Assembly: GCA_009192285.1 (NCBI GenBank)
Contig: CM018606.1
Span: forward strand, 2,036,081-2,100,080
DNA: 64,000 bases
DNA from: Morchella semilibera
Lineage: Eukaryota; Ascomycota; Pezizomycetes; Pezizales; Morchellaceae
Reading direction: 5' to 3'
Shown here: in pieces, positions 34,837-42,426 of the stretch
Layout of the letters: every line of letters starts with the position of its first letter
Numbering within the stretch: the first letter of the stretch is position 1
Translations under genes and position numbers: made by a program
Notes under the pieces: model-generated
The model's database searches: none
What the model saw: the letters and a program-made list of their open reading frames with translations, nothing else
Told to the model about the DNA's origin: nothing

Positions 34837-37800
34837 ATGTCAAATAACAGTTCGAGATGCCCTATTAGCGGTAATTCCAACGCCTCTGGTTCTTGTCCTG
34901 GTTCAAGAAGCTCCTCTAGGATGGGGCCTAGAGGATGCGCTTTTTCGGGCTTCTCTCACAATGCGCAACAGGTTCTCTATGGTGTAAGTAGTACTAGAAT
35001 CATTGGAAGCGTCCTTTTAACTAACCATGATTTTAACATTGTCCCAAATAGGCACCCCAAGGCCCCAACGCACCCGCCATAATCCACGAGAACGAAAGAC
35101 GTACAATGGTTGATGTCCTCCTCCCCACTGCACCATCGAAAGAACAAACCCGTGGACTGAAAAATGCCGACATCCTAACTCCCTCGAATGAAGATGTTCT
35201 CGCTGCCGCCTTAGGTGCACCCGCACGCCGAGTCCTGCAACGTGCAGAATCTATGGGCCCTCGGACAGGTTGGAGGGACGGCTATCTAACCAGTTCACAT
35301 GGATTCTGCCCTCCTGACCCTTCAGCCTCTCCAATTGCATTGTCTTCCAGTCCAGGGCGGGTGTGGAGCGACTTATGTGCTAGAATGCCGGGACTAGTCG
35401 GCCGTGGGAAAATCAGGGAAGCTATCCTTGAGCTACCGCTTATTAGCGGCGGGTCTGATGTTATTCCTGACCAGGCACTATGGGCGGCCACAGTATGCCT
35501 AGGAATATTGGCAAGTGTCTATCGTTATGAAGAGCGAAACGATGGACATGAAGGAATTATAGCTGGCGCACACGCGTCTGCTTTCCTAAATGCCACTGGA
35601 GATGCAGAAGATGAAGAGGAGGAAACAAAAGGAATACCGCGAAACGTAGCAATTCCACTTCGAACTGTGTGTACGAGAATGGGAAGGCCGCTGCCACATC
35701 TAACTCAGTACGATGTGTCAATATACAACTATAAACTGAGGGATCCGACTAGTGTCTATCCGTATGTGGAGCGGTTCGAGAATATGGACCTAAGGTGGCC
35801 GGTGTTTCAGGACCTAGCGGAGCGTGGGTTCTTGATATGTATGGCCGCTAGTCATGGTTGTTTCACGCCGGGAGTGGAGTTGATCGCGAGGTGTCAAGAG
35901 ATGGTGATGGATAGGTATAATTCTTTAAAGTTTCACGGAATATGAGAGAACTTTAGCTAACTATAGGATCTATTTTAGGGATAATGAAGGGTTACTAAGG
36001 GAACTTATTGCCTTGAAAGAGGTAGTTGATCAGCTAGGCTACGTTTTCCATCAAATCAGTGTTAATCCAGGTTCCGGAGAGAACTTTTCTAACCCAGTAA
36101 GTTTCAAAGACTAAACTATTTTCAATTATTTATCTTAACGAGTCCTAGGTTGAATGGGGCCAAAGATATGCCAAATTTTCAGCGCCCCTGTCAAAACGAG
36201 TGCCGGCTTTATCGGGACTAGCATTGCCGCTTTTCCAACTTATGGACGCCTTCATAGGTCGCAAAAAATACGACTCTTTTCTTGGACTAGAAGCATTACA
36301 TCTAAGGGCTTGGCTACCGTTGAATATTAGGGCGTTCATTACAGCAGTAGAACAATATTATTCGGTACCCGAGTATGTAAAATCTACTGGCGATTCGCGA
36401 TTGATGGGTGTGATGGAGGGGATCGTCGAGTCTTATACTGGAGAACGAGGCTTTATGGGAACACACAGATGTGAGTTTCATACCCTTCACCATTAATTTC
36501 CTACTAACATACAGTAGACAAGGTATATGGATTCCTTGAAGTAGTTGCAAAAACTGGGCGCACAGAAACAAATGGTGGGGCCGGAGCCGCAGATAACCAA
36601 GGCCGTCCATGGGAAGAGGTCCACAAGACCCTTTCAGATTCGATGATTGAACGTCTACAGCCTTTTCGGGAAAACATATCGCGGAAACCTCATGAAATGA
36701 GAGGGTGTTTTGAGGAGTGTCGTTTCAAAGCAAAGATCGCACGCCGCTCATTTATTGATAATGATCCTGATAGAAGTACAGCCAAGGTTACAGTGGATCT
36801 CATGCAATCCGGTATTACCTTTGGCCCTGGAGATCGCCTTGCGGTTATGCCACTAAATGGGTGGAAGGAGGTAGTAAAGTTGGCGGACGTATTGAGCTTG
36901 ATAGAAAGGTTAGAAGAGGTTGTCTCGTTGGAGAGGTCTTCCGAATGGAAGAGATATGCACACCATGAGGCAGCAATTTCGCGTGATAAATCCGCAGCAG
37001 TATTGAGGATTAAGGATATTCTTAGAAAAGGCCATCTCTCGCCTCTTACGAAGGAAACAGTCATGCAGGTGGGTTTGTGTAACTCTTCAGCTCTCAGGGG
37101 AAAAAAATACTAATAATAAAATTTAATAGGTTCACGTTCTTCTTCGGACATCATCATCCACTGTTATGAAGGTGCTTGCATCGGAAACATGGCCAGTTAG
37201 AGGGTCACTTGGTGACCTTTTGTCTGCTGCATCTGCCGAAGTCACTTCGGAGGTGTGGGATAAGGCATTCAATCCAGGAGATCTATCTTGGCTAGTAAAG
37301 CTTATCCCAATCGAAGTCCCGAGGACATATTCGATTTCGAGTTTTTCTGATGAGCTACTTCCATCCTCATTAGATCTGACAGTATCACGTGTGGAGCATG
37401 ATATATCGCCTGTCCTCAGTCCTAATATGGGTAGAAACCCATCATACTCTGGTGTGAGTAGCGGGTTTCTCAATCCACACCCGGAGGAAGAGAGAATAAT
37501 CAATGAAATCCCTGGATTTGCGAATCTCGAGGACACTGTGCTCGTCGGTGTCTCTCGGCCACTAAACTTCCAACTTCCTATTTCTCCAGCAGCCCCAGTT
37601 GCAATGTTCGCTGGTGGATCCGGAATCGCGCCCTTCAGGAGTTTCTGGGCGAAACGTATCTTATCTGGGGCGGTCGGGCGGAATATATTATTCCTTGGAG
37701 TCCAATCCCGGAAGAAGTTTGTTTATGAGGAAGAGCTCCGTGATCATGTCCGGTATAATAACCTTGAGCTGCATACAGCATTTTCACGGGACCGTAAGGG

Positions 37801-40011
37801 TCTTATGTATGATCCTTACCTCCGTGACTTAGTGGAGAAAGACATGGATCCTAGGTATCTTGATGTGGCAATTGTCGAGAACGGTAATACTGTTTGTGAC
37901 GTTGTAATGTCAACAAAACTTGGTGGGTTGGGCGGGTACCTTTATATCTGCGGTTCAGTTTCGGTATATGAGACTGTCATCTCTGGTATCAGGAAGTCGC
38001 TCTACACTAACCGAGCAGTGACCGCAAAATCTGCAGATGATCTATTGGCTACTGCGTTTGCAGAACGAAGATTCATGTTGGATATATTCATGACACCAAA
38101 AGCGATGTCATTCAAGGATCCAGTAATATCCATCTCAGAACTCTCACGGAATACAGGCCATCGGGAAGGCTCAAAGACCTGGATTGGCGTTCATGGTGCT
38201 GTATATGATGTTACCGATTTTCTACCCATCCATCCTGGGGGGTCGCTCATCGTCGCCGCCAGCGCCGGTTTAGACGCTACAAAGACCTTCGATGATCTCG
38301 CTCATACATCCAACCCAGAGGTTACAAGTCTCCTTTCAAAATGTTTTATTGGGTATATGGCCCCAAAGCCGCATCTACAATCCCTAGAGTTATCAGCATT
38401 ATATGATGGGTGGCAGGATTATCTCCGTACATGTGTGGAAAGTTTAACAACCCTCTCATTTGAGGTAAAGTCACTCATGAAGGATGAACATATTTGGTTT
38501 TCTGGTGGTATGTTAAATATGGGAGGAGTCCGTAAATTCTATCAGGTATGTGATTATAATCCGTTTACCCTTCCCCCGCCGAAGAAAAACCTGCTAAGAC
38601 AATCATTTCCACAGTTTCAATCGCGCTTAATGCAAAATGCATTCAGCGATTTATTCGGCACAAAAATGCAAGAGTTATACCTCAAATTGACATTCAACCT
38701 AATGGCCCTCCAAAACAATGGATCACGCTTCCCTGATGTCATGGGGATTATATCTCGCGCGCAGTCCTCCCAGTCGGCCACTAGAGCACAGAAGGAAATT
38801 GCCCTGATCGGAGATATGGTCTGCAATAGTGGGGCAGCACAGTCTATTGAGCGTGGTTTGATACGATACGCCCAGTCTGTAACTGAATTAGATGTCCGTT
38901 TTCTTGAGCAAATTCGGGAAGAGATTTGTACAGGTATGGATGGGTTCGATTTAGTGGCATCAATGAAGACCGCAACCAAAGAAAAACAGGTATGCTTTCT
39001 TTCAATTACCGGTTACTGGATTTTCTAACATGTAGTCTTTGCTAGCGACTGTTTAAAGTATCCGCTTTTCTGATCTCACTGCTTGAAAGAGTTGCTGAGC
39101 GGCTTGAAACTTTCTACGCCGAGATTGCCCAACAATCCATCTATCACCCTAAAATTGAAGAAAACCCTGCTCGAGCCCGATGGAGGCTTGTAAAACGTCG
39201 TATCTTCGATGGCAGCTTCTTCCTATTTGCTCAAGATGTGTCTCTTGAAAACCAGCCAGTCGATGAGATCGGCGAACCCATGTCACCGTTCCAGCCGCTA
39301 CGACAGGCTCGCATGCGCCAAAGTGTATCGTTTAACCAGATTGTGTCGAATGCGAATGATATGGTTAACCGATTGAACCATGGAAGAACCATTGAAAGTT
39401 TCCTTCAATCAAAACCAAACCCTGAACTGCCTGGAAATCCACCTGCAAAATCTCCCCGCAGATTGGCAGATATGCACACCACCCGAGCGGCAAGGCCTGA
39501 GAACCCAAAGTCGAGCTATACCGAGCATCTAGACCGGAAAGCTGCAAGCAGAATGACAAATTTCATGTCAGAAAACGTGAGAGCTCTTCGAAGACTCAGT
39601 CGCATTCCTCTGGATATCGATCCAGTTGCCATGCAGCATGCAATGAGTGTCTATGGTGGCTCAAGCCATGGGGGCCACTCCAGTCATGATAGTAGCGGTA
39701 GCTCCGCGCGCAGAGTAGAGAGAGCATTAATCCTCGGAGAAGGTATTAACAGCCGGGCTAGTTCTCGGGATAGAAGCAACCGATCAGTACATATGGAGAG
39801 CTTAGAAACGCGATCTGCATCCGCAAGGCCGAGCCATACCCGTGCCGAGAGTGTTGCGTCCCGATTCTCACCGGCACATGAACGGTCTTCTTCTACAGCG
39901 CCTACATCAAGGCATCATCGGAAGGTGTCGACATCTTCTATTCACTCAGTGAGTAGCGACCCGATGAGTAGAGGTTTAGAGGCATTGAAAAAGAAGTTTG
40001 CTGCTACATAG
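34837..40011 (+). CDS. Fusion: IDO/PrnB-like heme domain + P450-reductase-type FAD/NADPH domain + cytochrome b5
   Basis: Eight exons: 34837-34983, 35052-35914, 35979-36096, 36149-36470, 36518-37068, 37130-38545, 38615-38989 and 39046-40011; 1585 residues, all joins in frame. Residues about 60-535 resemble the indoleamine 2,3-dioxygenase/PrnB heme fold: LEALHLRAWLPLNIRAFI, VPEYVKSTGD and GTHRYKVYGFLEVVAKTG. His482 is the likely proximal heme ligand. Residues about 555-970 match the FAD/NADPH half of P450 reductase: RTYSIS at 732-737, FAGGSGIAPFRSFW at 827-840 and YICGS near 940. No flavodoxin (FMN) domain is seen. Residues about 997-1083 are cytochrome b5: HPGG (His1035) and FDDLAHT (His1059), the usual 24-residue ligand spacing. 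The region after 1090 is unrecognised and ends in a Ser/Arg-rich tail. Inferred role: a heme dioxygenase, perhaps on tryptophan or an indole, fed by its own reductase. Confidence 0.85.
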
Positions 40012-41406: not shown

Positions 41407-41994
41407 CTAATTCCTCTTGGCGTCATTTTTGATCTCCTCAATCTTTTCATTGGCCTTCTTGCTCTTCTTTCCCAGGTACGACGCGATGTAGCTCATCAAA
41501 TCAGAGCTAACTACTAATCCTGTCGTCACACCTGCCTTCGCCATAGGGATGTATCCCTTCTCGCCAGATCCTTGCCTGTTGAGCTCCTCGCCATAGATGT
41601 TAAAGACATACTCCTTGGTGTCCTTTGCAAGCTCTGTTCCACGTGTGTAGACCTCGCCAACAAGCTTCTTTGGGTATCCAACGACCGAGTTCTTGATGTT
41701 CTCAGTGGGCTCTTTAACAATGGGGAAGCGCTCCTCAAACTTTCCGAGGCCAGTCTCGGCGAGGTCATCGGCTCGGTTTACAAGTGGGGCAGCCTTAGAG
41801 AGGAATGGCGAGAATGGGGCGATGACGGTGCTGAAGGTGCTGTATGCAGAGTGTGTGATGTTGATGGAGCGCTGGCCAAGTTGATAGCCTTTGAAGGTGG
41901 TGATGGAGTCAGAGATTATTGGGTACGAGGCAAGGTGGTCGAGGGACTTGTAGGTGACAGTCTCGCCGTTGGTAATGGTCTCAGTGGTAGACAT
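41407..41994 (-). CDS. MPL1: Perilipin-like lipid-droplet protein (CAP20/MPL1 type)
   Basis: Single exon of 195 residues. It has the fungal perilipin signature: HLASYPIISDSITTFKGYQL near the N-terminus, then a hydrophobic stretch ending FLSKAAPLVNRADDLAETGL and the ERFPIVKEPTENIK block. The C-terminal half has amphipathic helices and a Lys/Glu-rich end. Members such as Metarhizium MPL1 and Colletotrichum CAP20 coat lipid droplets and help store lipid used for appressorium turgor. The length is typical. A TATATATAA box lies about 90 bases upstream on the minus strand (near 42086). Confidence 0.88.
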   Translation of the reverse strand: MSTTETITNGETVTYKSLDHLASYPIISDSITTFKGYQLGQRSINITHSAYSTFSTVIAPFSPFLSKAAPLVNRADDLAETGLGKFEERFPIVKEPTENIKNSVVGYPKKLVGEVYTRGTELAKDTKEYVFNIYGEELNRQGSGEKGYIPMAKAGVTTGLVVSSDLMSYIASYLGKKSKKANEKIEEIKNDAKRN

Positions 41995-42426
41995 TGTGAT
42001 GTGTGATAGGGTTGGTATAGATGACTATGGGATTTTATTGGAGATGATGAGGCTGTAGGGGCAAGGCGAGTTAGTGGAATGTTATATATAACAAGACCAG
42101 AAAGGTATAATTCCTAAAAACTATATGGGCTGAATCTATGAGGATAAACTTACTATGTAGTGATAATGAGGTAGAGCGCAAGTGTAGATAAAGCAATGAG
42201 CAGGATTAAGAGACAAGTAAAAATCAGGGCAGATGAAGGGGGGAAACCGTCGTATTTGTATTAGAAACATATGTACCTCAGACCGTATCCACCACCCAAA
42301 GGATAGAGATAAGTATGTACCTATCTGCGTCTACGTACGTATGCAGCAGCAACCCCTCTCGTCCCCTCCGCCGCGCCGCAAGTGGAGGACTTTGGCCTCC
42401 TCATTTTTGCCTGACATGTGAAAAGC

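Follow-up and report, generated by a model that had tools for sequence, protein, structure and literature searches.

The fusion gene and its product

We analysed a 64,000-nucleotide stretch of Morchella semilibera contig CM018606.1 (the window). On its forward strand, at 34837-40011, lies a gene that joins a domain of the indoleamine 2,3-dioxygenase (IDO) family, a flavin reductase module and a cytochrome b5. Splicing of eight exons produces a single open frame of 1,585 amino acids, from the ATG at 34837 to the TAG at 40009-40011 (Table 1). All seven introns are GT..AG and measure, in order, 68, 64, 52, 47, 61, 69 and 56 bp. Intron 4 has two in-frame acceptors, the earlier giving 44 bp and the later (CAGTAG) 47 bp; the latter yields THRYK, as read in homologs, and was used in the gene model. 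An earlier note, made from the sequence alone, had proposed one spliced frame and one polypeptide. The open frame points the same way, as does an alignment of the query with five deposited homologs, in which the reading register is unbroken at all seven junctions (P0012 is gapped at three of them and P0003 at one). A splicing or assembly artefact was ruled out because the same four-domain architecture recurs in 114 of 120 homologs among the matches listed. The 56.8-Mb assembly (23 contigs) was also searched with residues 1-1329 at E<=0.001. This returned 15 matches, namely the eight exons of the fusion gene and seven single reductase or b5 domains elsewhere. No second copy of the fusion was found with this query, and 34837-40011 was the only locus matched along its entire length.

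A Pfam scan of the whole protein gave four matches, all exceeding curated cut-offs: IDO (PF01231) at residues 129-364 (E 5e-15), FAD_binding_1 at 553-755 (E 1.8e-9), NAD_binding_1 at 826-891 (E 5.7e-7) and Cyt-b5 at 1011-1077 (E 3.6e-14). These are families that the earlier note had named for a profile search. The IDO match scored 55.6 bits against a cut-off of 26 and aligned only profile positions 8-211 of 412. No fifth family appeared at E<=1, and no flavodoxin domain for flavin mononucleotide (FMN) was found at that threshold. Matches to PDB sequences (best 60 of 151) included cytochrome b5, the sulfite reductase flavoprotein (SiR-FP), P450 reductase, the reductase of nitric oxide synthase (NOS) and IDO1, while NCBIfam had no match above cut-off for residues 1-540, P0121 or P0126. 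The motifs RTYSIS at 732 and GGSGIAP at 829, the HPGG histidine His1035, and His1059 are conserved in the family alignments; these and His482 all lie where the earlier note had placed them.

Two conserved elements can be added to that architecture. One is an N-terminal Cys-Pro motif, which was counted in the 98 of 121 sequences with at least 60 residues preceding an ALGAPAR motif; at least two CP occur in 77 of these, at least one in 84, and the GPRGC pattern in 77. Such CP motifs resemble heme regulatory motifs, and the element may act as a heme or redox sensor. The other is an all-helical domain after the b5 (residues 1088-1330), for which there was no significant Pfam, PDB or fold match. 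A MiaE-like identity was rejected, since it reached E 0.019 in only one of seven members and had no significant fold match; further weak Pfam names were ACAS_N, Pullulanase_Ins and Vts1. None of the 46 positions of this domain conserved in at least 115 of 121 sequences is His or Cys, which also tells against MiaE. The domain probably has a docking or regulatory role. Conservation falls after about residue 1325, and the Ser/Arg-rich tail is probably disordered.

Table 1. Features of the fusion gene and one neighbour (window positions)
Feature	Position	Strand	Basis
Whole gene, exons 1-4	34837-34983, 35052-35914, 35979-36096, 36149-36470	+	
Whole gene, exons 5-8	36518-37068, 37130-38545, 38615-38989, 39046-40011	+	
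N-terminal motif CP...CP...GPRGC-F, residues 8-38 (Cys8, Cys20, Cys34)	34858..34950	+	motif counts
IDO-fold heme domain (predicted), ~residues 107-535, three introns within	35223..36672	+	
His482, candidate proximal heme ligand (GERGFMGTH)	36464..36466	+	family conservation
FAD/NADPH reductase module, ~residues 545-987, without FMN domain	36700..38089	+	Pfam, Foldseek
Cytochrome b5 domain, residues 1011-1077 (His1035, His1059)	38159..38359	+	Pfam, PDB matches
C-terminal all-helical domain, residues 1088-1330	38390..39243	+	
Ser/Arg-rich tail, residues 1331-1585, poorly conserved	39244..40008	+	conservation, composition
Perilipin_2-type open reading frame, downstream of the fusion gene	41410-42024	-	Pfam E 9e-9

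Electron-transfer modules and the IDO domain

The reductase belongs to the P450-reductase/SiR type and carries flavin adenine dinucleotide (FAD) and NADPH motifs. When a homolog's model was submitted to Foldseek, the FAD domain of P450 BM3 ranked first (E 4.4e-17, TM score to target 0.78), with SiR-FP (E 1.0e-16) and P450 reductases also among the top ranks. The SiR-FP alignment extends to the last residue of SiR-FP itself, at residue 987, although its final piece scores just 2.4 bits alone, and the b5 domain follows directly. In P450 reductase, the counterparts of Ser735 (120/120), Cys941 and Asp985 (both 121/121) are the Ser, Cys and Asp around the flavin, and that of Ser886-Arg887 (121/121) is the NADPH 2'-phosphate pair. 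Thus the fold, the RxYS FAD motif, the flavin-site Cys and Asp, and a complete if weakly matched C-terminus were all found. In the cytochrome b5, the axial ligands lie 24 residues apart and are His in 119/119 (two gaps) and 121/121 sequences. Because the flavin-site, NADPH-pair and b5-ligand residues are invariant where aligned, both parts are expected to be functional, with NADPH preferred over NADH. Diflavin reductases (CPR, NOS, SiR) have an FMN flavodoxin domain, in contrast to the fusion protein. The b5 and the FMN-less reductase that the earlier note had described are therefore borne out.

The same note had called the N-terminal region IDO- or PrnB-like, and the two halves of this claim fared differently. 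The predicted model of a homolog has a complete two-domain helical IDO fold, and all 50 entries shown by a fold search with it are IDO1 or IDO2. PrnB found no counterpart by sequence: Pfam gave no family model for it at E<=1, and no PrnB chain was present among 41 PDB sequences retrieved with the IDO-domain profile at E<=10. The fold list cannot speak against PrnB, since IDO1 and IDO2 alone can fill the 50 entries. PrnB is not known to carry a fused redox partner. PMC11791213 places PrnB in the same broad superfamily as IDO, and through IDO it would share that superfamily with the fusion protein.

Relative to IDO1/IDO2 and to fungal and prokaryotic IDOs, the fusion protein is about 20% identical and has a short insertion ahead of the His. 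His482, a likely proximal heme ligand of ambiguous register, is H in 120 of 121 sequences and R in one. The distal pocket was compared in a mixed alignment of 25 of the 121 family sequences with six stand-alone IDOs. The stand-alone enzymes carry the distal loop S-G/A-x-Q-S-S, of which the fusion family retains SG and has lost QSS (SGLALP in the query, SGLQFP in a representative of the second paralog described below); the distal-helix IE of stand-alone IDOs is lost as well. Ser398 and Gly399 of this loop are kept in 120/120 sequences with a residue there, and the IDO part as a whole is conserved to about the same degree as the reductase part. The hhalign profile comprised 118 of the 121 sequences, leaving out three under 400 residues, and the folded alignment A1 comprised 50 of the 120 homologs, the query excluded. 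In addition, a separate three-exon gene in the M. semilibera genome, at C8:371425-372872, encodes an ordinary stand-alone IDO.

A widespread fungal family

The fusion is not a singular case. Of 8,000 candidates scored in a homolog search, 308 proteins passed E<=0.001, and the best 120 of these are listed and considered here. Beyond the 114 with all four domains, the exceptions are P0002 and P0029 (without NAD_binding_1), P0042 (without Cyt-b5), P0043 (without FAD_binding_1), P0049 (without FAD_binding_1 and Cyt-b5) and P0075 (without IDO), so that IDO is present in 119 of 120 by manual count. Among these matches the closest are Pezizomycetes (Kalaharituber, 67%; Ascobolus, 66%). The ascomycetes, whose classes we assigned from organism names, include Pezizo-, Eurotio-, Leotio-, Dothideo- and Sordariomycetes and Geoglossum; the basidiomycetes include Rhizoctonia, Ceratobasidium, Serendipita, Volvariella, Marasmius, Moniliophthora and Mycena, and there is one chytrid, Gaertneriomyces. 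Source names include 'NADPH--hemoprotein reductase', 'sulfite reductase flavoprotein alpha-component', 'Nitrate reductase [NADPH]', 'related to nitric-oxide synthase' and, in a few cases, 'indoleamine 2,3-dioxygenase'.

In a quick midpoint-rooted tree of 57 of the 121 sequences (the query and 56 chosen from the 120 listed), most groupings follow class and phylum. Eight basidiomycetes fall together (support 99) with the chytrid joined to them (99), and the query groups with other Pezizomycetes and P0047 (94, the fork drawn open). A second clade, of 25 rows, is drawn from Sordario-, Leotio- and Dothideomycetes. Some ascomycetes have two paralogs, since both clades contain Lentithecium, Periconia, Amniculicola and Leptodontidium. 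Geoglossum, the chytrid and P0047 have long branches and unsure placement. The tree is compatible with an ancient duplication followed by largely vertical descent. Horizontal transfer may also have contributed, since rooting was at the midpoint and the basidiomycetes are nested in the clade that contains the Pezizomycetes.

No bacterial, archaeal or viral relatives were confirmed by a search with exact short patterns, which distant relatives could escape. Searches with single domains gave 155 matches for the IDO domain (best 120 of 155 listed) and 66 for the C-terminal domain, and their lengths and domains suggest that they are exon or contig fragments of the fusion family. A description of the fusion was not found in the open-licence PMC literature, as judged by titles and the starts of abstracts, with subscription papers and preprints outside this scope. 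The architecture is already visible in public protein records; what is new is its recognition and the hypothesis built on it.

Proposed function and its alternatives

Based on these observations, we infer that the fusion protein is a soluble, catalytically self-sufficient, NADPH-driven heme oxygenase of the IDO fold, and we give this reading a probability of roughly 0.68. The FAD of the P450-reductase-type module would be reduced by NADPH. In place of the missing FMN domain, the cytochrome b5 of the fusion would serve as a one-electron shuttle, a role that cytochrome b5 has in nitrate reductase, and would deliver single electrons to a His-ligated heme in the IDO domain. That heme would bind O2 and activate it on a small substrate, probably aromatic or indole-type, and each turnover would probably consume electrons, in chemistry that is monooxygenase-like or mixed. 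Three observations make such use of electrons seem more likely to us than mere rescue of oxidised heme: the fusion persists in several fungal phyla, an ordinary IDO is also present and the canonical distal loop is altered. The separate IDO and the altered pocket also suggest that the protein is probably not a routine tryptophan dioxygenase, and the tryptophan-type label given by the earlier note is unproven. The fused electron chain that it proposed is complete on paper, and a self-sufficient oxygenase would be the most economical reading.

Several observations weigh against this reading. The mixed alignment sets the canonical proximal heme histidine, which we take to be IDO1 His346, at Val486, one helical turn past His482, so that the assignment of His482 as ligand is backed by its conservation and ambiguous in register. 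The neighbouring genes suggest no pathway, because the 20 that were scanned mainly have housekeeping-type Pfam matches or none. Finally, in PMC11791213, cytochrome b5 or P450 reductase added to PrnB in vitro gave no product; redox partners therefore do not always reveal activity.

The protein could instead be a genuine 2,3-dioxygenase of tryptophan or an indole, with the reductase and b5 serving only to maintain or restore ferrous heme and no electrons consumed per turnover. The predicted IDO fold and the retained Ser398 and Gly399 are consistent with this, and the title of a paper cited in PMC5350241 reports that cytochrome b5 reduces human IDO. Given the ordinary IDO elsewhere in the genome and the loss of both QSS and the distal-helix IE, we regard it as unlikely; it shares the core of the oxygenase reading, and the odds of the two overlap and do not sum to one.

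Flavohemoglobin has a similar heme plus FAD/NADPH layout, and with this in mind we considered whether the protein, with an IDO fold around its heme, might handle gases or radicals, as an NO dioxygenase, an O2 reductase or a heme/redox sensor. The N-terminal CP motif, the match of the FAD module to neuronal NOS reductase and the NOS-related names of some relatives would suit such a role. The Pfam scan of the protein found neither a globin nor a NOS oxygenase domain, however, and the reductase alone probably accounts for the NOS names. The Neurospora genes NCU05185 and NCU05006 are P450-reductase fusions. They are the best Neurospora matches of the NOS-like Magnaporthe genes NOL2 and NOL3 in PMC4948021. 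Taken together, these points make a gas-handling role improbable. There is similarly little chance that the IDO domain has become a scaffold or ligand-binding unit and that the enzyme acts as a cytochrome b5 reductase towards some external acceptor. The uncertain His register and altered distal pocket would allow it, but the near-invariance of His482 (120 of 121) and the conservation of the IDO part, which is similar to that of the reductase, speak against it.

Returning to the NADPH-driven oxygenase, several known systems resemble it in part. P450 BM3 (CYP102) and NOS also combine a heme oxygenase with a P450-reductase-type FAD-NADPH module in one chain, whereas the fusion protein has an IDO-fold heme domain and a b5 in place of FMN, located after the FAD-NADPH module. 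Nitrate reductase, in which FAD and b5 serve a third catalytic centre, and b5/b5-reductase fusions likewise unite FAD and cytochrome b5; the fusion protein differs in its P450-reductase/SiR-type reductase, its IDO-fold catalytic part and its domain order. PDB 6j7a from the Foldseek list, an engineered fusion of heme oxygenase-1 and P450 reductase, likewise couples a heme enzyme to a reductase module of this type, but its heme domain is unrelated to IDO. Fungal b5 reductases with an N-terminal b5 exist, according to PMC4557397. Compared with stand-alone IDOs, the reductase, the b5 and the C-terminal helical domain are all additions.

A bolder version, to which we would give somewhat less than even odds, is that the fusion protein is the first self-sufficient enzyme to be seen naturally in the IDO/TDO superfamily. 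In this view, an old family of fungal proteins would have turned a dioxygenase fold into an NADPH-dependent monooxygenase that takes electrons in each turnover via FAD and the fused b5, under control of the new helical domain and the Cys-Pro (heme or redox sensing) motif. The natural fusion puts the whole electron chain in one, probably soluble, protein, and it could allow a direct test of how IDO-type hemes stay reduced and whether the fold performs electron-consuming chemistry. It also offers a concrete hypothesis about proteins that are widespread in fungi and carry misleading labels (sulfite reductase, NOS-related, nitrate reductase) and, possibly, a ready-made NADPH-driven biocatalyst.

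The Pfam scan of the neighbourhood covered 20 of the 36 open reading frames listed there, some of the 36 belonging to the fusion gene itself. Matches among the neighbours include perilipin, PAP2 phosphatase, Gpi1, tRNA pseudouridine synthase and aldo/keto reductase. Separately, five of ten plasmid IDO records were examined, and on two haloarchaeal plasmids (L005 and L007) IDO adjoins kynureninase in a small tryptophan-degradation pair, the IDO of L007 being annotated as a hypothetical protein.

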